A stretch of 64,000 nt of DNA, taken from NCBI GenBank assembly GCA_902776285.1, contig CACYPK010000009.1:1-64000 (forward strand). The letters are read 5' to 3'. Positions 49,709 to 64,000 of the stretch are shown here, piece by piece (the stretch's first letter is position 1; every line of letters begins with the position of its first letter). The notes beneath the pieces were generated by a model. The model did not search any database and had not been told where the DNA came from. It worked only from the letters and a program-made list of their open reading frames with translations. This DNA comes from an uncultured Eubacteriales bacterium (GTDB lineage: Bacteria > Bacillota > Clostridia > Peptostreptococcales > Anaerovoracaceae). A program made the position numbers and the translations under genes.

Positions 49709-50020
49709 ATGTCTAGAGCGGAACGTACAAAAAAAGAAAACTCGCCTGAAAACGATCTTTCAAAACTCAAAAAGAAAGACCTGCTTGAGATAATGCTCAG
49801 GCAGGGAGAAGAGATCGACTCCCTCAGGGCGCAGGTATCCGAACTTCAGGCAAAACTTGACAACAGAGATTTTGAGCTCAGCAAGATAGGCAATATAGCG
49901 GAAGCGTCACTTGTGGTCACCAATGTATTTGAAGAAGCTCAGAAAGCCGCTGTTATCTATCTGAGAAATGTCAAGCGCATAGCTGAGCAGAATGCCGATG
50001 ATACAGGGAGCCGCAAATGA
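49709..50020 (+). CDS. Small coiled-coil protein, unknown function
   Basis: This is a 103-aa soluble protein without signal peptide. A charged N-terminus (MSRAERTKKENSPEND) is followed by a coiled coil (about 19-56: KKKDLLEIMLRQGEEIDSLRAQ, then VSELQAKLDNRDFEL as seen) and an amphipathic helical tail. The frame opens at 49643, but the ATG at 49709 is preferred because AAAAAGG lies 8 bases before it. I do not recognise a named family. Similar small coiled-coil proteins are found beside signal peptidases in Clostridia. It overlaps the peptidase gene by 4 bases (ATGA), suggesting a functional link. Confidence 0.78.
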   Translation: MSRAERTKKENSPENDLSKLKKKDLLEIMLRQGEEIDSLRAQVSELQAKLDNRDFELSKIGNIAEASLVVTNVFEEAQKAAVIYLRNVKRIAEQNADDTGSRK

Positions 50021-50616
50021 GGACCGACCCCGCACAAAACAAAGAAATGATCGCGCTCCCGGAGACTCCCGAGATACGCGAGGCCTACGAGAAGGTTTCC
50101 TATCTTGACAGGCTCAGAAAGTCGATTATCAGTACCACGAACATCCTGATAGTAGTGGCCGCGCTGGCGATACTGGTGGCGATGCTGTTCCTGCCGGTAC
50201 TGCGCATATACGGAGAGTCCATGAACGCCACGCTGAAGAGCGGAGAACTGGTAGTATCGGTAAAAGGATCGAAGTTCAAGACAGGGGATATCGTAGCTTT
50301 CTACTATAATAATAACATCCTCGTTAAACGCGTCATGGCCAACTCCGGCGACTGGATCGATATCGATCTTGACGGCAACGTATACGTCAATCAGCAGCTC
50401 GTAGACGAACCGTACCTGACGGAAAAGGCATTCGGCGAACCGGACATAGATTTTCCTTATCAGGTGCCTGATGAAAGAGTATTCGTGCTGGGAGACAACC
50501 GAAGCGTGTCCATAGACTCAAGGCACAGGGCCGTCGGATGCGTGACGTCTGAACAGATAGTAGGAAAGATAGTATTCAGGATCTGGCCGCTTACAAGGAT
50601 AGGGCCGGTCCACTGA
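50017..50616 (+). CDS. lepB: Signal peptidase I
   Basis: The 199-aa type I signal peptidase has one N-terminal membrane helix (about 42-63), nucleophile Ser68 in GESMN, general-base Lys104 in LVKRVMA, and the conserved GDNRSVSIDSR motif (about 165). The Lys makes it the prokaryotic Ser-Lys type, not the SipW type that has His. Its place directly before the pilin locus suggests it processes these secreted subunits, as dedicated peptidases do in some pilus islands. It is coupled to the coiled-coil gene by a 4-base overlap. Confidence 0.93.
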   Translation: MRTDPAQNKEMIALPETPEIREAYEKVSYLDRLRKSIISTTNILIVVAALAILVAMLFLPVLRIYGESMNATLKSGELVVSVKGSKFKTGDIVAFYYNNNILVKRVMANSGDWIDIDLDGNVYVNQQLVDEPYLTEKAFGEPDIDFPYQVPDERVFVLGDNRSVSIDSRHRAVGCVTSEQIVGKIVFRIWPLTRIGPVH

Positions 50617-50632: not shown

Positions 50633-50850
50633 CGTCAGATGACGGTAACTGTGACTGCACAGTTGCTACCATAAATATAAGTATGATGGCATATATCAGG
50701 CTTTGGTCAAAACTCCGCAGACTCTGAGGGGAGGCCTGCGGGTAATGATACCCGGGCTGCCGAGGGTAAGAGGCAGCGCAAAAACAATTTTGCCCTTCGG
50801 GGCATGAACTATGGCCGCGAGGCCATTAAACAAAATGGGCCGATTGGCCA
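50633..50850 (+). ncRNA. Hairpin-rich 5' leader of the pilin gene, unassigned class
   Basis: The 272 bases between lepB and the pilin gene hold a string of hairpins: CGTC-AGAT-GACG (50633-50644), a 9-bp stem (50645-50666), CGGGTA-ATGA-TACCCG (50739-50754), GCTGCC/GGCAGC (50756-50777), TGCCC-TTCG-GGGCA (50791-50804), ATGGCC-GCGA-GGCCAT (50811-50826) and a GGCC-GATT-GGCC stem (50836-50850). CCGCAG (50715-50720) can instead pair with CTGCGG (50736-50741), competing with the CGGGTA stem. The UUCG and GCGA tetraloops imply a selected RNA fold. I could not match it to any riboswitch I know. A TATAAG at 50676 may be part of a weak promoter. Confidence 0.6.
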
Positions 50851-50888
50851 TAGTAATATGCCTGATGAGGGCAGAAAGGAAGGTTTTT

Positions 50889-52346
50889 ATGAAACACATT
50901 AAAAAAGTTGTAACTCTGTTTCTGACTTTTGCGATGGTGCTGGCAATGAGCGTTTCAGTATTCGCTGCTGGTAATCATACTGTAACAGCTCCATCCGATA
51001 GGGCTAACCACACTTATCAGATCTATCAGGTGTTTACCGGTGACGCTGACGGCAACGCACTGACAAACCTGAAATATGGCTTAAATGCTGTGGGAGAAAC
51101 AGGAAAAGTAGTAAGCCAGGCTGATATGGAGAAGTTAAAAACAATTGAGGGGAAAACATATGCTGATGATCAGGCTAAGATTGCCGATTTAACTCAATTT
51201 GTAAATTTAACTGGCACACCAATTGCCGAAATCGGTAAGGGAAAAGAAGCATCTGCATCGTTAGCTGAAGGTTACTATATCATCAAGGATACAGATAACT
51301 CCCTTCAGGATCCTGACACGTATACACTATATATGTTTAAAGTTCTGAAAGATGACCTTACATTAGAGCCGAAGGATTCAACGACTGAATCTGATAAAAC
51401 TATCGGTGATTCTGCCAAGATCACAGACACAGATATCGGTAAGGATGTGCCGTACACTCTGACAGTTAAGCTTCCGGCGAACTATGCGGATTACAAGGAT
51501 TTCTATCTGAACTTCGTCGATGATATGTCAAAGGGCCTCACCTACAATGGCGACGCCAAAATCTTCTACGGAGCTTCTGATACAGAAGGAACAGCTATAA
51601 ACTTCGCTGCTGTTTCCGGAACATCTTATACAGGTGGTCAGAAGTACGAGTATAAGATTGCCGATCTCAAATCCGTTGATAACGATTTTGCTAAAGCTTT
51701 AAAGGGCGGAGATGTCGTAAAGGTCACCTATACTGCAAAAGTCAACAACAACGCTGTAATTGGCGAAGCCGGAAATCCTAACAAGTTCCACGTTGATTAC
51801 TCAAACAATCCGAATCAGACAGGTGATGGAAACCCTGGACACACACCGGATGACACAACTATCGTTCTGACATTCAAGACAATCCTCAACAAGGTTGACG
51901 GCGATGGCAACGCACTTACAGGAGCTGACTTCAAGCTTGAAAAGAAAGCTGATGATGGTACTTGGGTTGTAGTTGACAGAAAAGAAGGAACATCTGCAGG
52001 TTCTCAGTTCTCATTCAATGGTCTTGGGCAGGGAGAATACCAGCTTACAGAGACTGCAGTCCCTACCGGCTATAATGAGATGGATCCTAATCCATTAACT
52101 TTCACAATCAGTGCTGAATATAGTATCGAAGGAGATAAAGCTACAGTGTCATCACTTACTGGCACGGCATTAGAGTTTACATCGGACACAGAAGCTGGAA
52201 CACTGACTGCTGACATTGAGAACAATTCCGGCGCCACACTTCCTTCGACAGGTGGTATCGGTACGGTCATCTTCTATGTATTCGGTTCACTGCTCGTGAT
52301 CGGATGCGGAATCGTTCTTATCTCCAGAAAGAGAACGAACAACTAA
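50889..52346 (+). CDS. LPXTG-anchored major pilin (SpaH/EbpB-type, isopeptide domains)
   Basis: The 485-aa protein has a Sec signal peptide (cut after SVFA, about residue 26) and a fimbrial D2 isopeptide domain with VPYTLTVKLPANY and FVDDMSKGLTYNG. The backbone-pilin block HVDYSNNPNQ follows, then a SpaA-type domain LNKVDGDGNALTGADFKLEK with the E-box YQLTETAVPTGY, and a sorting signal LPSTGG, membrane segment and RKRTNN tail. It is probably the shaft subunit polymerised by the next gene's sortase. The ATG at 50889 follows AAAGGAAGG; an upstream frame from 50811 lacks a signal peptide and runs through leader hairpins. Codon use is more A+T-rich than neighbours. Confidence 0.93.
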   Translation: MKHIKKVVTLFLTFAMVLAMSVSVFAAGNHTVTAPSDRANHTYQIYQVFTGDADGNALTNLKYGLNAVGETGKVVSQADMEKLKTIEGKTYADDQAKIADLTQFVNLTGTPIAEIGKGKEASASLAEGYYIIKDTDNSLQDPDTYTLYMFKVLKDDLTLEPKDSTTESDKTIGDSAKITDTDIGKDVPYTLTVKLPANYADYKDFYLNFVDDMSKGLTYNGDAKIFYGASDTEGTAINFAAVSGTSYTGGQKYEYKIADLKSVDNDFAKALKGGDVVKVTYTAKVNNNAVIGEAGNPNKFHVDYSNNPNQTGDGNPGHTPDDTTIVLTFKTILNKVDGDGNALTGADFKLEKKADDGTWVVVDRKEGTSAGSQFSFNGLGQGEYQLTETAVPTGYNEMDPNPLTFTISAEYSIEGDKATVSSLTGTALEFTSDTEAGTLTADIENNSGATLPSTGGIGTVIFYVFGSLLVIGCGIVLISRKRTNN

Positions 52347-52623: not shown

Positions 52624-53505
52624 ATGAAAGCATGGATACGTAAGAATCTCGTAACAGTATTGATGGCGGCAGGAATGGCTGTCGGCGTCTTCCTGCTAGC
52701 ATATCCTTCTGTAGCTAATTACTGGAATTCATTTCACCAAACGCGCGCGATAGCTTCCTATACCGAGGCTGTCAGCCATATGAGCAAGGATGAATATGAT
52801 TCCGTTATGAAGGAAGCAAGGGACTATAATAAGCGGCTTGCTGAAACAGGGATGCGATGGTCAATGACGGATGCTGAACTGGCGGAGTACAACAACACTT
52901 TAACGATAAAAGGCTCACAGATCATAGGCTTTGTAAGTATTCCCAAGTTCCATGTCCGTTGCCCTATATATCACGGTACCGATGAGGCGATCCTTCAGGT
53001 AGCCATCGGGCATCTGGAACCATCATCGCTTCCGGTAGGAGGGGAGAGCACCCACTGTCTTATATCCGGACACAGGGGTCTTCCGTCGGCCAGGCTTTTC
53101 ACAGACATCGTCAAGATGAAGGAAGGCGACACCTGGACCATATCGGTCCTCAACGAGACGCTGACATATGAGTGCGACCAGATAAGAACGGTCCTTCCGG
53201 ATGACCTGTCAGATCTACAGATCATAGAAGGCGAAGATCTTTGCACACTTATTACTTGTACGCCATACGGAGTCAATACTCACAGGTTGCTTGTCAGAGG
53301 ACACCGAATACCAAATGTTAATGGAACAGCGGATATCACGGCGGACGGCATACAGATCGAGCCGATATACATAGCCCCGGTCCTCGCAGTACCGTCGATA
53401 ATACTGCTGCTTATACTACTATTTATATCTACGAGAAGAGCAAAACGTTTCAACTCAGAAGACTTTAAAAAGCTATACCTTGAAGAAAAGGGACTCGGAA
53501 AATGA
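52624..53505 (+). CDS. srtC: Class C (pilin-polymerising) sortase
   Basis: This is a 293-aa sortase with an N-terminal membrane segment (about 13-32) and a C-terminal one (about 249-269), the usual class C layout. The catalytic triad is intact: His150 in SGHRGLP, Cys212 in TCTPYG and Arg221 in HRLLVRG. A lid-type segment precedes the core (MRWSMTDAELAEYN). It should join pilin subunits through their LPSTG signals. The frame is open from 52519, but the ATG at 52624 gives a normal membrane-anchor start. It overlaps the next gene by 4 bases. Confidence 0.94.
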   Translation: MKAWIRKNLVTVLMAAGMAVGVFLLAYPSVANYWNSFHQTRAIASYTEAVSHMSKDEYDSVMKEARDYNKRLAETGMRWSMTDAELAEYNNTLTIKGSQIIGFVSIPKFHVRCPIYHGTDEAILQVAIGHLEPSSLPVGGESTHCLISGHRGLPSARLFTDIVKMKEGDTWTISVLNETLTYECDQIRTVLPDDLSDLQIIEGEDLCTLITCTPYGVNTHRLLVRGHRIPNVNGTADITADGIQIEPIYIAPVLAVPSIILLLILLFISTRRAKRFNSEDFKKLYLEEKGLGK

Positions 53506-54983
53506 AAACGAGAAAACGACTAATCAAAAAAACGCTGTTAGTAGCTGTGCTGACCCTGCTGTTGGCGGGTCTGGCATGTCTGCCTCAAATGCAATCGTAC
53601 GCGGGCGGTACCGTTACGGTTAATGTCGGCAATCAGGATTCCTGGCAATCCGGCACGGAGTTCACGTTTGAACTGTACAAGGTTGGCGAATACGGTCATG
53701 ACGCAAATGGAAAGGTGATCTTCAACCTCGATGACAAGTATGCCGACGCCGGAGTTTCACAGAAACTTGCTACAGCTTCCAGTTATGATCAGGGGACGAC
53801 ATCTGACAAGGACTGGAGTCAGGATTGGCTTGATACGGCGAACACTCTGGCCACATACATCAACAGTATGAGTTCAGGCAAACCTGAAGCGCAGACCGCA
53901 ACGGCAACTTTCGGTGATGACGGAAAAGCTTCGTTCAATATCACCGTTAACAAAGGAAACGGCCTCTATCTTCTTGTAGGAAGGTCAAAAGAGATAGGTG
54001 GCAAGCTCTGGACGCCTCAGCCGATGTTCGTCAGCGTTCTCGATGACGATAAGACCATCACTTTTGACAACTCCCTCGGAGTAAAGATGATCTCAAGAGA
54101 CATCGTGTTTGACCACAATGTTGTAAAGATGTGGGAAGGTGATGGAGACGTATCCGATTACGTAAGACCTGCTAAAGTCGCAGTAAAGATAATGTATGGA
54201 TCGACTCTTGTCGATACTGTTATCCTCGATAAAGAAAGCGGCTACTCATTCAGCTGGAAACATAAAGTTCATTACAGCTCCGGTGCCGACGCCGCAGCAT
54301 CAACTGATGACGAGGTAGTAAGCATTGATTACATAATAAATGCAGATGGTACCGAAACCGTAAAGAAGAACTTCAAGCCTGTTGCCGGAGACGCGGGCTG
54401 GAGTGTGGTAGAGATCAGGGACGAGGACGAAATACCTGACGCTGACGCTAAAAAGCAGGCACCGATGCTCCGCAGTTATAACACTACGTACCTGCCGCAG
54501 CAGGTCACTGACGAAACTGAGTCATTCACCATTACCAATGAGTATGTCAGCAAGATGCTTAAGCTTAAGAAAACCATCGACGGTTATGTCGATGACGGGC
54601 AGAATGTAGCGTTCTCATTCAAGATCGTAGGCAGGGACTCAAATGATAAAGTAATCTACACCAACCATATCGGAATATCCTTCGAGAAAAATGAGGGTGT
54701 GACAAAAGAGGCCGTGCTGAACAACATTCCGGTCGCTGTCGAGACGATAGAAGTTACCGAAGAGTATTCCGGCAACTACGTGCAGGATGGTGATATTGTG
54801 ATAACCGATATTACCAAGACTGACTCAGATGGAGAAACGACCTATGTAGTTGGATGGCAGGCTGAAGCAAATAACAAACATAGCGGTCACGGACCTGGCG
54901 GAGGCGTCGTCAACAAGTACGAACACGGACAGGGTCCGGTACAGGACGGCGGCTCGGAGCCGGCAGAAGAAGATAACGACTAA
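53502..54983 (+). CDS. Secreted Cna-B-type pilus subunit lacking a sorting signal
   Basis: The 493-aa protein has a signal peptide (cut after QSYA, about residue 34), a pilin-like N-terminal domain (TEFTFELYKVGEYGHD) and a Cna-B domain (about 200-330; VKMWEGDGDVSDYVRPAKVAV, cut here to VRPAKVAVKIMYG). A further beta-rich domain (MLKLKKTIDGYVDDGQNVAF) and a His/Gly/Glu-rich tail ending AEEDND follow. No LPXTG motif, membrane segment or basic tail is present, and the next gene's ribosome site follows directly, so no C-terminus was lost by a nearby frameshift. It may be an accessory or tip subunit held non-covalently or by another route. Confidence 0.8.
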   Translation: MKTRKRLIKKTLLVAVLTLLLAGLACLPQMQSYAGGTVTVNVGNQDSWQSGTEFTFELYKVGEYGHDANGKVIFNLDDKYADAGVSQKLATASSYDQGTTSDKDWSQDWLDTANTLATYINSMSSGKPEAQTATATFGDDGKASFNITVNKGNGLYLLVGRSKEIGGKLWTPQPMFVSVLDDDKTITFDNSLGVKMISRDIVFDHNVVKMWEGDGDVSDYVRPAKVAVKIMYGSTLVDTVILDKESGYSFSWKHKVHYSSGADAAASTDDEVVSIDYIINADGTETVKKNFKPVAGDAGWSVVEIRDEDEIPDADAKKQAPMLRSYNTTYLPQQVTDETESFTITNEYVSKMLKLKKTIDGYVDDGQNVAFSFKIVGRDSNDKVIYTNHIGISFEKNEGVTKEAVLNNIPVAVETIEVTEEYSGNYVQDGDIVITDITKTDSDGETTYVVGWQAEANNKHSGHGPGGGVVNKYEHGQGPVQDGGSEPAEEDND

Positions 54984-55004: not shown

Positions 55005-55496
55005 ATGAGAAACAAAAGGAAACTGGTCATAGCGCTGAGCCTCATACTGTGTCTTACGGCAAGCGTGGGATTTACCATGGCTTACTTTACAGACTATGAG
55101 AATGCAAAGGGCGGCGCTGTGGTCAAACTTAGCGGACAAACAGAGGTCGATGAGGAGTTTGATGGCAATAATAAAGAAGTCACCATCAAGAACACAGGCG
55201 ACACCGATATGGTTGTGCGTCTCAAAGTATTTGGTGATGAAAACCACATGACCATGAACTCCACCGGTAATACCGACTGGCTGGAAGGTACGGACGGCTT
55301 CTGGTACTACAAGAAAGTTTTACCTGCCGGTGCTGAAGCGTCCATGTTCAAGGTAGAGGTAAACGGAGAGATCGATCCGGGTGATCCGATCGACTTTGAG
55401 ATCACTGTCGTGCATGAGTCTCAGAGAGTCACTTATGACGGTGACAAGGTAGCTGTCCCTGAAGGATGGAAGATAGATTCCATCAGCGATAAGTAG
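55005..55496 (+). CDS. Small secreted TasA/camelysin-like protein with SipW-type N-terminus
   Basis: The 163-aa protein starts with a basic, hydrophobic signal whose end reads VGFTMAYFTD (residues 21-30). The AYFTD-type junction is typical of SipW-processed TasA/camelysin relatives. A beta-rich domain follows with VTIKNTGDTDMVVRLKVFGDE, the common 'conditions on mean and residue' pattern of this group. TasA-type proteins form biofilm fibres. No SipW gene is in the window; only the Lys-type signal peptidase is. The GGGAGGAAG ribosome site and 21-base spacing place it in the pilus operon. Confidence 0.72.
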   Translation: MRNKRKLVIALSLILCLTASVGFTMAYFTDYENAKGGAVVKLSGQTEVDEEFDGNNKEVTIKNTGDTDMVVRLKVFGDENHMTMNSTGNTDWLEGTDGFWYYKKVLPAGAEASMFKVEVNGEIDPGDPIDFEITVVHESQRVTYDGDKVAVPEGWKIDSISDK

Positions 55497-55508: not shown

Positions 55509-56393
55509 ATGAAGAAGATAAGATCAGAAATGTCAAAACGCTCATTGGCTCTGCTTGTAGCGGCAGCACTGTTCCTCGGTGCCGGGACTTTCGCGGCAGC
55601 GAAGACCGTTTTCGACATACAGAGTGAATATTACATCGCTCACTTCTATCTCAATCACCTGCAGGTGCATCTCATTGAGAACGGCAAGGATGTCTGCGAG
55701 CGCGCAGGTCACAAAAATGACCTGGACAGCGGAAGCAAGGTGACCGGAGAACTCGCTGTCACGCTTGGTTATGAGCACAAAGACGGACAGGACGAGGTTC
55801 TGGGATCCATTGAACCGGGCAAGCTGTATAAGGAAGAAATCGCTGCGCAGAACGGCAGCGACATCGATGAGTTCGTTAGGCTCACAGTCAGAAAATACTG
55901 GATGGAGCCTAAAAAGGATGCCGATGGCAATGTAGTAAAAGACGACAGCGGTAATCCTGTGCTTGTGAAATCATCAAAACTGAAACCGTCACGTATACAT
56001 CTCTATTACAAAGGTAAAGAGGGCTACAACAGCGGCGCGTGGACGCTCAATAGCAAAGAACAGACCGCAGAATCCAGCACTTACTACTATAAAAAGGACC
56101 TGGATCCGGACGCGACTTCGTCGCTTCTCTTCGACAAGGTCAGCATTGACAAGGAGATCATTGATCTCGGAAAAGTCAATACGACGGAAGAAACGTACGC
56201 GGATGGAAAAAAGACTAAGAAAGTCTACAAATATGAGTATCAGTATGACGACTGCGTATTCTTTATCGAAGCGGACGTACAGGCCATACAGACTCATAAC
56301 GTAAATGACGCTATAAAGAGCCAGTGGGGAGTCAGCAATGTTACCGCGTCCTATAATGACAATACGGGCAGCGGCACGCTGACGGTCAAATAG
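55509..56393 (+). CDS. Secreted protein, possible TasA-like fibre partner
   Basis: The 294-aa protein has a signal sequence with GAGTFAAAKTVFD (about 25-36) and a beta-rich body with paired blocks (GELAVTLGYEHKD, FVRLTVRKYWMEP, YQYDDCVFFIEADVQAIQ). The N-terminal layout and domain size resemble TasA-type or SipW-linked proteins, but no named domain is certain. No LPXTG or membrane tail is seen. A single Cys occurs near residue 64 and another near 263. It starts 12 bases after the previous gene with a GGGAGGTGA site. It probably forms or caps a fibre together with the 55005 product, though that is inference. Confidence 0.62.
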   Translation: MKKIRSEMSKRSLALLVAAALFLGAGTFAAAKTVFDIQSEYYIAHFYLNHLQVHLIENGKDVCERAGHKNDLDSGSKVTGELAVTLGYEHKDGQDEVLGSIEPGKLYKEEIAAQNGSDIDEFVRLTVRKYWMEPKKDADGNVVKDDSGNPVLVKSSKLKPSRIHLYYKGKEGYNSGAWTLNSKEQTAESSTYYYKKDLDPDATSSLLFDKVSIDKEIIDLGKVNTTEETYADGKKTKKVYKYEYQYDDCVFFIEADVQAIQTHNVNDAIKSQWGVSNVTASYNDNTGSGTLTVK

Positions 56394-56404: not shown

Positions 56405-57172
56405 ATGAAGAAAAGATATAACATCATTCCGGTCCTCATGATATCGCTGGCGCTGATCCTTGGCGGCACTTTCTCAACATTTGCTGAGAGCACTTCGCAT
56501 AAAGGATCATGCAGCTATGACGGGAACGACATCGAGAGCACGTTCAGCAGTTCTACAATAGCAAAGGCCGTAGAAGACCTGCAGCCGGGCGATGACGTCA
56601 CATTCACTGTCACATATACGAATGAGTCCGGTGACGATACCGACTGGTACATGGAAAACAGCATTGTTCAGACGCTCGAGAAGACTTCTGCCAAAAAGAA
56701 GGTGAGCGGCACAGGCGAAGCTGAAAACGGCGGCTATACCTACGAGCTGACCCATTATGACAAGAACGGCGACAGTGAAGTGCTCTTCAGCAGCGACGAA
56801 GTGGGCGGCGAGAACGGTGCGGTCCCTGACCTCGATTCCGGTAAAGAAATCGAAGGACTTGAACCTGCCACAAACGCGCTCGATGAATGGTTCTACATCC
56901 AGACTCTCAGTAAGAATGAGAGCGGAAAAGTAGTGCTGCATGTCGCGTTCGACGGCGAGACCGAAGTTAACGACTACATGGATACCGACGGCGAACTGAA
57001 TCTCAGATTTGCTGTAGAAAAAGTATCAAAGAAAAGCAAGAGAGTATATACCGGCGATCACAGTGACCTCATAATGTGGTCAGCCATATTCCTGGTGAGC
57101 GGACTGCTGCTCATAGTCCTTGCATGGCTTTTCAGAAAGCAGAAAGGAGGCAATGATGAAAAAGTTAAATAA
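56405..57172 (+). CDS. Surface protein with C-terminal membrane anchor and VYTGD motif
   Basis: The 255-aa protein has a signal peptide (cut after STFA, about residue 27) and an extracellular domain with VTYTNESGDDTDWYMENS. A C-terminal tail carries VYTGDHSD (214-221), a 22-residue membrane segment (222-243) and the basic end RKQKGG. The layout copies a sortase sorting signal, but the pentapeptide is not LPXTG. It could be a variant signal or only a membrane anchor. It follows with an AGGAGG site and its end overlaps the next gene by 17 bases, indicating coupling. Confidence 0.68.
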   Translation: MKKRYNIIPVLMISLALILGGTFSTFAESTSHKGSCSYDGNDIESTFSSSTIAKAVEDLQPGDDVTFTVTYTNESGDDTDWYMENSIVQTLEKTSAKKKVSGTGEAENGGYTYELTHYDKNGDSEVLFSSDEVGGENGAVPDLDSGKEIEGLEPATNALDEWFYIQTLSKNESGKVVLHVAFDGETEVNDYMDTDGELNLRFAVEKVSKKSKRVYTGDHSDLIMWSAIFLVSGLLLIVLAWLFRKQKGGNDEKVK

Positions 57173-58109
57173 ACTCTTCATTATCTTCCTTGCCCTGATC
57201 ATGGCCGCAGGACTTTCCTGCATGTCAGTTTTCGCTGATACAGACGACGCCGATGTTACATATACTGTCACTGTATATTCCGGCAAATCAGGTACCTTCA
57301 GTGGAGGATCCACATCAAAAGTCATCAGCGGACTGCATCTGGGCGATGAAGTGACGCTTGACATCAATTCTGCTGAATATAAGCCGGTGATCAACAGCGA
57401 CGTGGCAGATAAATACTATGCCAGGGGCTTTAAGATTGCCGGACATGACAACGATGAGATCAGCCAGCTGCAGCTCGTAAGCTACAAATTCAAAGTAGAT
57501 GGAGATGCTTCATTCACGGTCGCTTACGGAATGAAGGGAGGCCTTGTAAAGTATACTGTCAACTATGTTGACGAAGGCGGAAACGATCTTCTTCCATCTG
57601 GGGAGTTTTACGGGATGGTCGGCGACACTCCTGTCGTATCCTATCAGTATGTGGAAGGGTACAAGCCTGACGCGTACAACATCGGACGTACTCTTAAGGC
57701 AGACGAATCAGAAAATGTCTTTGATTTCGTATACACCAAGGCTGCTGCCACGGGAACGACTATTGAATATATAAACGGCGGCGGAGCAGGCGCAAACAAC
57801 GCTAATGGCGCCGGAGCCGGTGCCGGTGCCGGCGGTGATGCTGTCGCTGACGGAACGACTATCAACGACAACCCTACACCACAGGCTTCAGAGCCTGATC
57901 AGATCAAGATCGAGGATAGCGATACACCTGAGGCACTGCCGCAGGATCAGGGCCTGACCGATTCCCAGCGTCAGCTTATCAAGGCTGCAGCCATCGGTAC
58001 CGGATGCGTTGTAGTACTGGCAATTGCTCTTGCAGCGCTTCTCATAAAGAGACGCAGAGACAATGAGGAGGCGGCCACGGTAGGATCTTCGATAACAGAT
58101 GAAGGGTAA
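57156..58109 (+). CDS. Membrane-anchored MucBP-domain surface protein
   Basis: The 317-aa protein has a signal peptide (cut after SVFA, about residue 24) and an N-terminal beta domain. A MucBP-type domain (about 130-195) includes VKYTVNYVDEGGNDLL and YVEGYKPD, followed by a Gly/Ala/Asn-rich linker (about 208-225). The C-terminal membrane segment (about 273-294) is followed by KRRRDNEEA. No LPXTG is present. MucBP domains occur in adhesins. I chose the second of two adjacent ATGs because AAGGAGG lies 5 bases before it. The gene overlaps the following sortase-like gene by 11 bases. Confidence 0.75.
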   Translation: MKKLNKLFIIFLALIMAAGLSCMSVFADTDDADVTYTVTVYSGKSGTFSGGSTSKVISGLHLGDEVTLDINSAEYKPVINSDVADKYYARGFKIAGHDNDEISQLQLVSYKFKVDGDASFTVAYGMKGGLVKYTVNYVDEGGNDLLPSGEFYGMVGDTPVVSYQYVEGYKPDAYNIGRTLKADESENVFDFVYTKAAATGTTIEYINGGGAGANNANGAGAGAGAGGDAVADGTTINDNPTPQASEPDQIKIEDSDTPEALPQDQGLTDSQRQLIKAAAIGTGCVVVLAIALAALLIKRRRDNEEAATVGSSITDEG

Positions 58110-58665
58110 AAAAGGGACAAAACAAATTCTGAGACTATCGATCTTGCTGCTTATCATTGCAGCAATTGGTTATGGCGGATACACATATCTTCAGATACAG
58201 CAGTCGGGCAGACACGCTGCCGATGTGCTGAGCAAGATGAAGATGCTCATTCCCAATCTGGGAGTCGACACCGGTGTATCAAAAGGACTGGGAAGGGACC
58301 CGCTCCCCGTCATAAGTATCGATGAGATCGATATAGCAGGCTGCATAGAGGTGCCGTCAATCGATCTGATGGCGCCTGTAGCGGCCGAAGGATACGAAGA
58401 GGAAGGATTTGCCACCATCGTCAGCGGATCGCCTGTAAAGGGGAATTTTAAACTCTCAGGTGGACGTGACGACGTATTCCGCAAATTGTCCAAAGCAAAA
58501 CCTGGCGACACCGTGGCTTTCACTGATGTCGACGGAGTCCGTTATAGCTATAGGGTATTGACACAATTTCATCTGAAGGAATGGGACGAAGCAGATCATG
58601 ATCTGATGCTGTGCTACCAGACTGATGACCATACAGAATTCGTTGTAGGATGTAACGCGGATTAA
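58099..58665 (+). CDS. Sortase-like protein lacking catalytic His and Arg
   Basis: The 188-aa protein has an N-terminal membrane segment (about 11-31) and a short sortase-like barrel: CIEVPSIDLMAPV corresponds to the start of the sortase core, and SGGRDDVFRKLSKAKPGD to the His-containing strand. The His position reads Gly122, in SGG instead of SGH. A Cys172 sits where the nucleophile is expected (LMLCYQT), but the Arg position 8 residues on, as in class B, is Glu180. An intact transpeptidase is therefore unlikely. It could be a chaperone-like or regulatory pseudo-sortase, or a divergent enzyme. It is tightly packed in the locus. Confidence 0.7.
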   Translation: MKGKKGTKQILRLSILLLIIAAIGYGGYTYLQIQQSGRHAADVLSKMKMLIPNLGVDTGVSKGLGRDPLPVISIDEIDIAGCIEVPSIDLMAPVAAEGYEEEGFATIVSGSPVKGNFKLSGGRDDVFRKLSKAKPGDTVAFTDVDGVRYSYRVLTQFHLKEWDEADHDLMLCYQTDDHTEFVVGCNAD

Positions 58666-58718: not shown

Positions 58719-61700
58719 ATGCATATTATAGACAGATTAAAAGAGTTAATATATGCGCTTGTAATGAACATGAAAAAGCAGCGCAAGATCATTCTTGTAC
58801 TTGCTTGCTTTGTTGTATTCATTACAACCTATGTACTCATATTACCGGCCTTTACACTTGAGAAGGACAAAGCCCTTGAACAGGGGGGAATTGACATACC
58901 CGCAAACACAGTCAGTTCTGAAGTACAGGACGTTGATGATTCTTCAGATAAAGAACCTGTAACAACTGAGGAAACAACTGCAACAGAAGAAGCAGTTGCC
59001 AAGGAAGAAACATCCGAAAGGAATAAAGAGAGAGAACCGGAAAAGACCAAAGTTACTGATAATAAGACCGAAAAGACTAATGCAAAAGACAATGATTCTC
59101 TTACATTTGAAGGTGAGAATTATAAAGTATCTGTAGTTGATAAGAATCATGTTCTGCCTGCAAATACCGAAATAAAAGTAGAAGAAATAGATGAGCAACT
59201 TGATTCAAAGGATTATAAGAAATACATATCGGATTCGATCAAAGCAGTAAATGATGATGAGGGCACTAATTCCATTACAGATATTAAATTCGCTCGCTTC
59301 TATGACATTAAGCTTGTCTCCAATGGTAAAGAAATCAACACAGACAACGCTGTAAGCGTCAGTATAGAGTATGAAAACGAAATATCCAAATCCATGCCTG
59401 TAAAGGACTCTGATAAGATCCATGTCATTCATTTTGCCGAAGACAAGAAGACAGGAGAGATTGAACCGGAAATACTTGACAGCAAGAACGTAGACGTTAA
59501 TACCGATAGTAAGGACCATCTCACAGAAACAACGTTTGAGGCGGAAGGCTTCTCCGTTTATGCTGTCATTTATACTGTAGATTTTAGTTATTCTGTAGAT
59601 GGTGAATCATATGAGTATAGCCTTGAAGGCGACAGTTCCATTTCACTCAAGGAACTGCTTAAGACACTTGAAGTAATAAAGGATGACAAGAATACTGAGC
59701 CTGATGAGTCGGCCTTATTCATGAATGAGATCGATAAAGTCGAATTCACTGATGATGAACTCATAAACATTGAAAAAGCAACGGGAGATGAGCCTGACTG
59801 GACTCTTACAAGCCTTAAGCCTTTCGATTCAGAGGAAAAACTGACTATCACCATGAAGAATGGCGATGTGTTTGAAGTAAATGTAACAGACGCTCAACTG
59901 AAGACTTATGCTATATCAGCCAAGGGTGAAAAATATGAAATCATTGTTACCTATGATGAAACAGCAGAGATTCCTGAAGATGCAGAGCTTGAAGTAAGAG
60001 AAATCACATCTGATTCTGAGGAGTATTCCGAGAATGTTGAACTTGCTAATAAGAAAATTGAGTCCAAGTCTGAATCGGAACTGATTACTGATCCTGTTCA
60101 GTTTGATATCAGTATTGTTTCAAACGGCGAAAAAATTGAGCCTAAAGAAGGCAGTACTGTGAAAGTAGAAATGCAGTTGGTTCAGTCCATGTTCGAAAAT
60201 GACGTGACTAAAGAATCGGAAAATGCATCGGAAGAAACTTCATCCGGCGAAAAGGCTGGCAGCATAATGCTAAATGGCCAGGAGATTACTGTTGATGATT
60301 CTGGAAGTGAAAAAGTAACAAAATGCAATATCGTTCATATTACTGATGAAGGCGCTGTTGAATTCATAAATGATGTTGACAGTACTGTTGATGATGACAG
60401 AATTGTTATGCAATTTGAAACAGATTCATTCTCAGATTACATGGTTCAAGGTTCTAACATGTACAATAATGTATACAACCTTCCGGATGTAATTTATGTT
60501 GGCGATGTAATCTATATGCAAAATGCCGGTGATATATGGGTAACGGACATTGGAAGCGTTGTATCTGAAACAAAGCATAATAATCGTGATGACTATAAAG
60601 TAGTAGAAGCACTGACACCGGGAACATTCAGGATGTGCCACAGGAATGACTGGAATAACGGCAATCCTGTGAACAATGTTAAAACAATCAGAGTTCTGCC
60701 AGCCAGAGAGGAGCAGGATCTTCCGCATCCACGCGTATTAACTGAAGCAGATGGTATTGTTAGTAATAACAGCATAGGACTAAAGCTTAATCTGTTTGAT
60801 TATGATTTGGATGGATATTTGGATGATAGATTTAACAACTATGACTTTGGCAACAATAATCCTGCAACAAGCGCATTCACAAGTCACGGAATAAACAATG
60901 GGCATGCGCTTAAGTTCTGGGGAAGCGGAATAACTAATGGTTATCATGGTTCTTTAAATAATTATGTAGAACACGGAGTAACCAGTATTGTTGAAAGAAA
61001 CCTTTCCGGAGGATATCCGAAGCTTAGCGGTTACAACGAAACATTAGCATATTTATTTGATCCTTCTTTGAATACAACTGACAGACAGGTTATGCAGGGA
61101 TCTGATGGAACGAATAACATAGATGGGTTGTTTAAAAAAGAGGGTGATTACTACGTTTATGACAGTAATAAAAATTATGCTTACTACAACCCGGAAACAA
61201 AAAGATTTGATGTTTATGAAACAACATATAAGCAAAAACTCCGTGGTGATGGAGGCGAACAAGCTTCGCAGGAAGCTAATAAGCCGATTGGTTTCTTCCC
61301 GTTCCATGAATATGACGAAAACTATGACAAGTATGTAAACTGGAACAAGACTCTGAACCATCATTTCGGTATGTCGATGAGTGTCGACTTCAGTTTACCT
61401 AAGGATCCAAAGGCTGTTGTGGATACAAATGGCAATCCTATTATCTTTGAGTTCTCCGGCGATGATGATTTGTGGGTATTCATAGACGGAAAGCTTGCCA
61501 TGGATATCGGTGGAATTCACCAGCCTACCTCCGGTAAGATCAATTTCCAGGATGGAACTGTTGAGGTCAACGGTCAGGCGCAGACCGGATTTGATTTCTC
61601 GAACTTATATGACGGGAAAAAGCATACGCTTCAAGTGTTCTATATTGAACGAGGAGGCTGCGATTCCAACTGCATGATCAAGTTTAATCTGACTCAGTAT

Positions 61701-64000
61701 GGCGACATCCATTTTGACAAAGTCGACAAAGACAATACTAGTAACAAACTTGCAGGTGCGGTATTTGGAATCTATAAAGACAGTGCCTGCACGGAGCCGC
61801 TGATGGAACAGTTGAAAAACAGACCTTCCAGAGCATATGTCGCAGAGTCGGATGCGAATGGGCGTGTACAGTTTTCAGATATTCCTCTCGGAACATACTA
61901 TCTGAAGGAACTACATGCGCCGGAAGGATACCCTCTTGATGATACTGTTCATACTGTCAGAGTATATGTTGACGAGGGAACCGGAGAGGTAAGAGTTGCA
62001 GTTACTATTGACGGCGTAGATGTTGTTAACGGAGTGCGCATTCTTAATGAAAAACCTGCTCCAATAAATCTTGGACTGAATAAAGTGTGGCAGAATGCAG
62101 ATGAGCAGAACATCGATGCTCCAGTTGGCGTGACCGCTAAATTTGAAATCAAGCGGATTCGAACCTATGAGAAGTATACTGAGCAGCAAATAGAAGGTCA
62201 GGGACGTGAATCTTCGCATCTTACTGTTGGATGGATTCACAACAATCAGACCCATGTATATAAAGAATATGATCTCATTGCAGGCTCTCAGGCGACTGTT
62301 TCATGGGGATATGTTGATGGCTACGAAGGCAGTAAAGACTGCGTAGTCAACGGAAACAGAGTAGATAAGGATTATGTTTCCAGCAATATAGTTTCCGAGT
62401 CGATCACTATGCCGGCATCCGGTGGATCAGCTACGTTCTATATTATTGACGATTCTGAAAATGGTGAAGCGATTCGCAGTATCAACGTTGCCGGACAGCA
62501 GTTCTATGGCAACTCGGGCGGTGGTGTTATTCACACCTTTGAAACGATTACTGAGCCGGATCCTGATTTCAGCTATAGCGGCGACAATGTGACTAACAAT
62601 CAGGTTACTCTTCCGATTGGCACGGATACATGGCAGTACATATTCAACAATCTGCCTACATTTGGAAGAGGTAGTGTTGCAGGTGTTGATCACGAAGTTT
62701 CTTTCAACTACACCTACTATCTGGAAGAGGTGAGCAATACGGCTCCTGAAGGAACTACTGTGATTTACAAGGATCTGAACGGCAATGTGATCAATTCCGC
62801 TTCTGACGCTGAGACATCAATATCCGGTACACAGGAAATAGTCAACCGTGTTCCATTCGGTTATCTGAAAATCGAAAAGAAAGTTACGTATAATGGCAGT
62901 GATCAGGATCTAACCGACGAACAGAAATCAAAACTCGCAGGTGATTACAAGTTCAAAATCTATACGGATGCGCAGTGTAGTACAGGATCTGCAGTTCAGG
63001 ATCCTGATGCTGCACCTGATGCTGAAGATAAAGACTTAATCATCACTATTACTATCGGAACAGATGGACAGGCTGTCAGCAGCGATGCTGTCAAACTCTT
63101 GGCGGGTAAATATTGGATCAAGGAAGTAGAGTCTTCAAATCCTGTTATGTTCCCTGTTGAGAATCCGATCGAGGTAACTGTAACGAAAGATAATACAACA
63201 TCAAGTCCTGCATTATCTTCGATCACCAATAATTACGACGAGAATAACGGTCCTGATAAGATAGTGATCGATGTTGAGAAGAAGTTCCAGGGACTGTACG
63301 ATATTTCACAGGTACCTGCAAATTTTGAACTCCACATTCAGTATAAAGTAGGAACGCAGACTAAAACAGTAACACTTCAAAATCATATGGCAACCGGTGA
63401 AAATGGAGAGACCATTAATTTCACTCAAGATGGTTTCACCTGGCACTGGGTAGTAGGCGATATCGATTCTGAAGCAAAAGATTTCAGAATCCAGGAGAGT
63501 CATTACGATGAAGCTGCTGGAGCTGACTGGCAGAGCGCAACCCTGAACGGAACAACTATCACTTCAACTGCATCGGATTATCATGATTTGACAGTGACAG
63601 CTCCGGAGGTAACGATCAGCGAAGATATACATACTCAAAGAATAACATCTGACAGTGAGTACGATAGAGCATTTTTCCTTCTTGACGATGACATTCTACT
63701 CACTGCGCTGACAGCTCATCAGGGATCATTGGTAATTTCCAAGAAGCCTCTGAATCTGTTACAGAGAAAAGCTATTGAGGAGAATTGGCCTGGACAGGGA
63801 AGTATAAAAAAACCAGCGACTTATTTCAGTATCGAAGAGCATCCGGAAGGTTTTACTTATGACAACAAAACGATTGTCTTCGGAGAAAAGGACGGGAAAG
63901 CAGTTGTAAAATTTACCGCGAATGCCTCATCCAATGAAGCAATATTTGTTGCTACTTATGACAGCCATGAATCTCTAAATATAGCAAATTTGGTAAATAC
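58719..64000 (+). CDS. Giant fibro-slime/SpaA-domain surface adhesin, 3' end beyond window
   Basis: At least 1760 codons are visible, with no stop before base 64000. The N-terminus has a basic stretch and an export segment ending TTYVLILPAFTLE (about 36-48), a pattern common to large clostridial surface proteins. A Glu/Lys/Thr-rich region follows (about 60-130), then several beta-rich domains. A fibro-slime-type domain with FSGDDDLWVFIDGKLAMDIGG lies near 910-930. From about 1000 onwards are SpaA/Cna-B-type domains (IHFDKVDKDNTSNKLAGAVF, YYLKELHAPEGY). AAAGAGG lies 7 bases before the ATG. It looks distinctly A+T-rich. It is a likely tip adhesin for the locus; any LPXTG signal would be outside. 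Confidence 0.9.
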   Translation, partial: MHIIDRLKELIYALVMNMKKQRKIILVLACFVVFITTYVLILPAFTLEKDKALEQGGIDIPANTVSSEVQDVDDSSDKEPVTTEETTATEEAVAKEETSERNKEREPEKTKVTDNKTEKTNAKDNDSLTFEGENYKVSVVDKNHVLPANTEIKVEEIDEQLDSKDYKKYISDSIKAVNDDEGTNSITDIKFARFYDIKLVSNGKEINTDNAVSVSIEYENEISKSMPVKDSDKIHVIHFAEDKKTGEIEPEILDSKNVDVNTDSKDHLTETTFEAEGFSVYAVIYTVDFSYSVDGESYEYSLEGDSSISLKELLKTLEVIKDDKNTEPDESALFMNEIDKVEFTDDELINIEKATGDEPDWTLTSLKPFDSEEKLTITMKNGDVFEVNVTDAQLKTYAISAKGEKYEIIVTYDETAEIPEDAELEVREITSDSEEYSENVELANKKIESKSESELITDPVQFDISIVSNGEKIEPKEGSTVKVEMQLVQSMFENDVTKESENASEETSSGEKAGSIMLNGQEITVDDSGSEKVTKCNIVHITDEGAVEFINDVDSTVDDDRIVMQFETDSFSDYMVQGSNMYNNVYNLPDVIYVGDVIYMQNAGDIWVTDIGSVVSETKHNNRDDYKVVEALTPGTFRMCHRNDWNNGNPVNNVKTIRVLPAREEQDLPHPRVLTEADGIVSNNSIGLKLNLFDYDLDGYLDDRFNNYDFGNNNPATSAFTSHGINNGHALKFWGSGITNGYHGSLNNYVEHGVTSIVERNLSGGYPKLSGYNETLAYLFDPSLNTTDRQVMQGSDGTNNIDGLFKKEGDYYVYDSNKNYAYYNPETKRFDVYETTYKQKLRGDGGEQASQEANKPIGFFPFHEYDENYDKYVNWNKTLNHHFGMSMSVDFSLPKDPKAVVDTNGNPIIFEFSGDDDLWVFIDGKLAMDIGGIHQPTSGKINFQDGTVEVNGQAQTGFDFSNLYDGKKHTLQVFYIERGGCDSNCMIKFNLTQYGDIHFDKVDKDNTSNKLAGAVFGIYKDSACTEPLMEQLKNRPSRAYVAESDANGRVQFSDIPLGTYYLKELHAPEGYPLDDTVHTVRVYVDEGTGEVRVAVTIDGVDVVNGVRILNEKPAPINLGLNKVWQNADEQNIDAPVGVTAKFEIKRIRTYEKYTEQQIEGQGRESSHLTVGWIHNNQTHVYKEYDLIAGSQATVSWGYVDGYEGSKDCVVNGNRVDKDYVSSNIVSESITMPASGGSATFYIIDDSENGEAIRSINVAGQQFYGNSGGGVIHTFETITEPDPDFSYSGDNVTNNQVTLPIGTDTWQYIFNNLPTFGRGSVAGVDHEVSFNYTYYLEEVSNTAPEGTTVIYKDLNGNVINSASDAETSISGTQEIVNRVPFGYLKIEKKVTYNGSDQDLTDEQKSKLAGDYKFKIYTDAQCSTGSAVQDPDAAPDAEDKDLIITITIGTDGQAVSSDAVKLLAGKYWIKEVESSNPVMFPVENPIEVTVTKDNTTSSPALSSITNNYDENNGPDKIVIDVEKKFQGLYDISQVPANFELHIQYKVGTQTKTVTLQNHMATGENGETINFTQDGFTWHWVVGDIDSEAKDFRIQESHYDEAAGADWQSATLNGTTITSTASDYHDLTVTAPEVTISEDIHTQRITSDSEYDRAFFLLDDDILLTALTAHQGSLVISKKPLNLLQRKAIEENWPGQGSIKKPATYFSIEEHPEGFTYDNKTIVFGEKDGKAVVKFTANASSNEAIFVATYDSHESLNIANLVN

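Follow-up and report, generated by a model that had tools for sequence, protein, structure and literature searches.

The open reading frame at 58,099-58,665 of the window (the whole 64,000-nucleotide stretch of DNA that was analysed) very probably encodes a pseudo-sortase, here PSRT, a membrane-anchored protein of sortase fold that derives from a second pilus sortase, has lost the catalytic Cys, His and Arg, and would not carry out transpeptidation by the known mechanism. The non-catalytic status of PSRT is well supported, and a holding platform or substrate presenter is the best guess for its role. The reading as a whole, in which PSRT is a non-catalytic pilus assembly factor that acts as a scaffold or presenter and anchoring falls to a class B sortase, is given a probability of roughly 0.48. 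PSRT lies close to the end of a gut bacterium's pilus operon, the features of which are as follows.

50017..50616, + strand: type I signal peptidase, which opens the operon (family match, neighbourhood)
50811..52346, + strand: major pilin with an LPSTGG sorting signal (family match)
52624..53505, + strand: class C pilus sortase SrtC with intact SGHRG and TCTPYGVNTHR (NF033745, 259 bits against a cut-off of 160)
53502..54983, + strand: secreted pilin-like protein, related to base-pilin-like proteins of sister operons (without a family match)
55005..55496, + strand: TasA/BsaA-like, SipW-type secreted protein (TIGR04090, E 4.6e-6, below cut-off)
55509..56393, + strand: secreted operon protein, conserved in long-form operons (without a family match)
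56405..57172, + strand: minor or base-type pilin ending in VYTGD, a transmembrane segment and a basic tail, an xxTGD-type signal (weak TIGR03063 match, E 0.11)
57156..58109, + strand: secreted or membrane protein with a C-terminal transmembrane segment and RRR tail, partner of PSRT in long-form operons (neighbourhood)
58099..58665, + strand: PSRT, predicted pseudo-sortase with a membrane helix and a sortase beta-barrel lacking the catalytic Cys, His and Arg (profile, fold, alignment)
58462..58464, + strand: codon of Gly122, in the catalytic His column (alignment to active relatives)
58612..58614, + strand: codon of Cys172, in strand b7, two residues before the catalytic Cys column (alignments, predicted structure)
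58618..58620, + strand: codon of Gln174, in the catalytic Cys column, or beside it if one residue is deleted there (alignments)
58636..58638, + strand: codon of Glu180, in the catalytic Arg column (alignments)
58719..64000, + strand: large fibro-slime/SpaA adhesin 3' of PSRT, continuing past the window to contig position 64547 (family matches)

Within this operon, no LPxTG-like sorting motif was recognised in the 57156..58109 protein. The presence of a BsaA/TasA-like protein (55005-55496) in a sortase pilus operon represents a mix of two fibre systems. The adhesin at 58719-64000 is followed in tandem by a second large adhesin (L013:4816-9504); the two align at 42% over 440 aa, and both carry LPxSGGIGT signals. 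When the window's own genome was scanned with PF00746 and TIGR03063, four LPxTG-type proteins were found above cut-off, while class B-type signals were only weak, with the 56405 protein second best.

The earlier note had described the PSRT gene as intact, membrane-anchored and tightly spaced, and this description stands: the reading frame of 188 aa is unbroken, its start overlaps the end of the upstream gene 57156..58109 by 11 bases, and an N-terminal membrane helix is predicted at residues 5-50 (AlphaFold2). Residues 83-160 match the Pfam Sortase family (PF04203) at 29.9 bits, against a curated cut-off of 26.6, and the AlphaFold2 model is a sortase barrel (pLDDT 82, pTM 0.74) whose top PDB matches are sortases (Foldseek, VIA-align). 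The best of these is SrtA 7f87 (Z 14.8, rmsd 1.8 A over 112 residues), and SrtC 3tbe gives a Z of 14.0; both share the barrel with PSRT but at only ~13-25% identity, and PSRT differs from them in having no catalytic residues. On its predicted fold, PSRT is a member of the sortase superfamily. It reaches no class-level NCBIfam cut-off, the best match being to class D at 26 bits against a cut-off of 140, and the class B model (TIGR03064) is not listed at E values up to 1. Assignment to class B was rejected for lack of any class B model match, and the comparison with class B sortases drawn earlier was not apt, as PSRT is closest to the second sortases encoded in clostridial pilus operons.

These active second sortases (for example L030:4067-4651, L055 and L056) resemble PSRT in length, in topology, in their position after SrtC and the base pilin, and in a full-length profile match (hhalign, Prob 99.8, E 2.6e-28), but differ in that they keep His, Cys and Arg (AHN...TC...R) and are partnered by an [LI]PxTGxxWP signal rather than xxTG[DE]. 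Judged by full-length homology and shared operon position, PSRT belongs to the second pilus sortase lineage. The active members L030 and L031, when tested, reach no class-level NCBIfam cut-off either, and the active second sortases together with their LPxTGxxWP partner signal possibly constitute an unclassified sortase group.

In the profile-profile alignment, Gly122 pairs with the catalytic His of the active relatives and Glu180 with the Arg, in agreement with the column table of a 68-sequence alignment, so that the replacement of these two residues proposed in the earlier note is upheld. The same cannot be said of its claim that the Cys is kept. Cys172 pairs with the Phe of DLTLFTC in the profile-profile alignment (Phe or Tyr in the column table), two residues before the catalytic Cys, which itself lies opposite a gap adjoining Gln174; MAFFT placed the offset at one residue in one small set and at two in the other sets, and the profile-profile alignment agrees with two. 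Because Cys172 is off the catalytic column, and this column holds no Cys in any of the 16 orthologues, the kept Cys is a misalignment.

Among these 16 orthologues, the His column reads G,G,G,N,G,G,G,D,S,G,G,G,N,A,G,R (His 0/16), the Cys column Q,K,P,E,R,E,E,R,E,K,P,R,D,P,E,G (Cys 0/16), and the Arg column, in which Glu180 is itself variable, E,E,Q,D,S,Y,Y,R,D,K,D,M,Q,D,S,S (Arg 1/16, in L038). The three columns rank with the more variable ones of the domain, at 85 (His), 105 (Cys) and 108 (Arg) of 111 columns, where 1 is the most conserved. In the 68-sequence alignment, by comparison, 43 of the 44 relatives labelled active keep both His and Cys, and Arg is present in all 43 except one truncated sequence, where it is missing; seven further dead relatives have no catalytic residues in the aligned columns. 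PSRT therefore lacks, as judged from these alignments, the catalytic Cys, His and Arg that define a sortase enzyme. The exception among the 44 is L145 (G236:C128; the same gene as L199:3658-4365, minus strand), which keeps the Cys, has His changed to Leu and Arg to Gln, and adjoins a LIQTGQLNWP base pilin. This is the Cys-kept pattern that had been described for PSRT, seen here as a singleton in a MAG, and it could be an error.

The 16 orthologues are intact and span four genera; seven of the loci come from six of the 47 genomes searched within the genus, and the other nine from elsewhere in the family. They are found in records of uncultured Clostridiales, Mogibacterium sp. and Bacillota MAGs, and sheep ileum and roe deer jejunum are the sources given in the two records whose titles state one. 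One genome, G026, carries two complete pilus operons (C47 = L015 and C49 = L016) with a pseudo-sortase in each. Between the window and G043, dN/dS is 0.092 for PSRT, like that of the active SrtC (0.081), and 0.063 for the signal peptidase; in more distant pairs dS is mostly saturated. Purifying selection, as had been proposed, is borne out by this ratio, by the intact orthologues and by the retained operon position, which together with the predicted fold also support the idea of a non-transpeptidase sortase fold.

When the whole class was searched and the catalytic motifs were read, many families proved to have active relatives. A second, more distant dead group of seven also emerged (L052/L136, L158, L167, L168, L169, L171 and L172), spread over five or more families; wherever the contig extends far enough, its members occupy the corresponding place in the operon. 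All 23 dead sequences form one clade in the maximum-likelihood tree (96/85), which persists when the catalytic regions are removed (94/89), although it is not fully secure. Several independent catalytic losses need not be invoked, as the dead copies group together even without the catalytic regions.

The loss of catalysis is accompanied by a change in the partner pilin. Active relatives are mostly found in operons of the order SigPep - adhesin - PilA - SrtC - base pilin - sortase, and the dead copies mostly end a SigPep-PilA-SrtC-base-pilin operon, in the slot that an active second sortase fills in relatives. The closest sorting signal on the upstream side is xxTG[DE] in 21/23 dead loci, with no upstream signal found in G019 (rearranged) or G796, while an [LI]xxTG followed by a W(P) motif ([LI]xxTGxxWP) lies upstream in 23/26 active loci, the other three comprising one TGD (G777) and two in which no signal was found. 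These counts were made by hand from a script table, and from neighbourhood readings where the script missed signals. Of the genomes tested, 18/18 with a dead copy encode a class B sortase at another locus, and 14/18 with an active copy also encode one; that of the window's genome is L082, above the TIGR03064 cut-off. In Clostridioides difficile, the class B sortase SrtB cleaves (S/P)PXTG signals (PMC4155245), and the Clostridium perfringens pilus likewise carries a class B signal (PMC8088525). SrtB is the likely enzyme type for xxTGD signals; it differs from PSRT in being active, and PSRT is not class B.

In sister operons, position and co-variation suggest that the active second sortase anchors the base pilin through its LPxTGxxWP signal, as the enzymatic ancestor of PSRT would have done. 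In the pseudo-sortase lineage, a class B sortase encoded elsewhere would probably anchor the xxTG[DE] base pilin instead, because xxTG[DE] resembles (S/P)PXTG and every dead-copy genome tested encodes a class B sortase. PSRT would then most likely hold the base pilin, the growing SrtC-bound pilus or both at the membrane and present what it holds to the working sortase, as is thought for SipA. Against this, the window's VYTGD has no (S/P)P such as the C. difficile motif contains, many genomes with an active copy encode a class B sortase too, and in one active-copy genome, G777, the base pilin has a PQTGD signal. This last case (L195:1672-3309) is an exception to the co-variation, with an active second sortase beside the PQTGD base pilin, and no class B sortase was found in that genome. 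The link between dead copies and signal type may moreover rest on a single evolutionary event, kept since, which is possible because the dead copies form one clade. It is suggested only tentatively, and with some doubt, that the pseudo-sortase family, present in at least five families, marks an anchoring switch, in which a dedicated anchoring sortase lost its catalysis and turned into an adaptor that hands the xxTG[DE] pilin to the housekeeping class B sortase.

An alternative, unlikely although with several points in its favour, is that PSRT, instead of presenting substrate, acts as a regulator. It would vie with SrtC or the class B sortase for sorting signals, and thereby restrain pilus polymerisation or determine when elongation gives way to anchoring. 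PSRT shares its fold and membrane topology with the operon's active sortases, it is the final gene of the assembly operon, and its barrel is conserved while the catalytic columns drift, all of which would suit a competitor; but its beta6/beta7 loop is about six residues shorter than in active relatives, so that signal binding is not assured. Rather less probable still is a structural anchor, in which PSRT would bind the base pilin or the 57156 protein non-covalently and, as a component of the pilus base, hold it fast in the membrane. The N-terminal membrane helix would fit this arrangement, as would a neighbourhood that always includes the base pilin and, where the operon is long, the 57156 protein. 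Yet the base pilin has its own TG signal, transmembrane segment and basic tail, features of a protein that a sortase anchors covalently.

Unorthodox catalysis, as a hydrolase or an altered sortase using for example Cys172 with His158 and Arg148, is very improbable. Cys172 is kept in 13/16 orthologues, His158, the best-kept His, in 14/16 and Arg148 in 16/16, but orthologue L038 is devoid of His, Tyr, Leu and Tyr replace Cys172 in L042, L045 and L046, and in the seven sequences of the sister group every catalytic residue is missing from the aligned columns. This variation led to rejection of the Cys172/His158/Arg148 triad, and no alternative conserved His/Arg pair was found among the 16 orthologues. 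The hydrolase role that had been raised earlier is not supported, on the same grounds, with no conserved Cys/His/Arg triad and a Cys172 that lies outside the catalytic column. Least credible is a functionless, decaying remnant, for although all catalytic residues are lost and G012 holds a 48-codon fragment of the gene, decay is rejected by the dN/dS of 0.09 and is further opposed by the 16 intact orthologues in four genera and by the retained operon position and upstream-gene overlap. The fragment itself (G012:C33:95252-95380; L011/L060) is a gene remnant, and no SrtC, PilA or SigPep match was found near it in the 20 kb stretch read.

For the preferred reading of PSRT as an assembly factor, the closest parallel in kind is SipA of Streptococcus pyogenes, a signal peptidase homologue without the catalytic dyad that is essential for pilus polymerisation, and for which its authors detected no binding partner (PMC4049620). 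Both would be dead homologues of an envelope-processing enzyme retained in a pilus operon. They differ in that SipA has a signal peptidase fold, with no homology to PSRT, and in that the need for SipA in polymerisation is known, while the role of PSRT is inferred. In the literature, of which coverage was incomplete, no description of a pseudosortase or of an inactive, degenerate or dead sortase was found, and the one match to 'degenerate sortase' concerned a cleavage motif. PSRT would represent a pseudo-enzyme branch of the sortase superfamily. Databases would label this protein a sortase and so infer an activity that is most likely absent. A dead sortase that is conserved in pilus operons and has a co-varying pilin signal offers a natural system in which to ask which steps of pilus assembly need the body of a sortase and not its chemistry. 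The case bears on how an enzyme becomes an assembly factor, and PSRT would parallel SipA from another fold.
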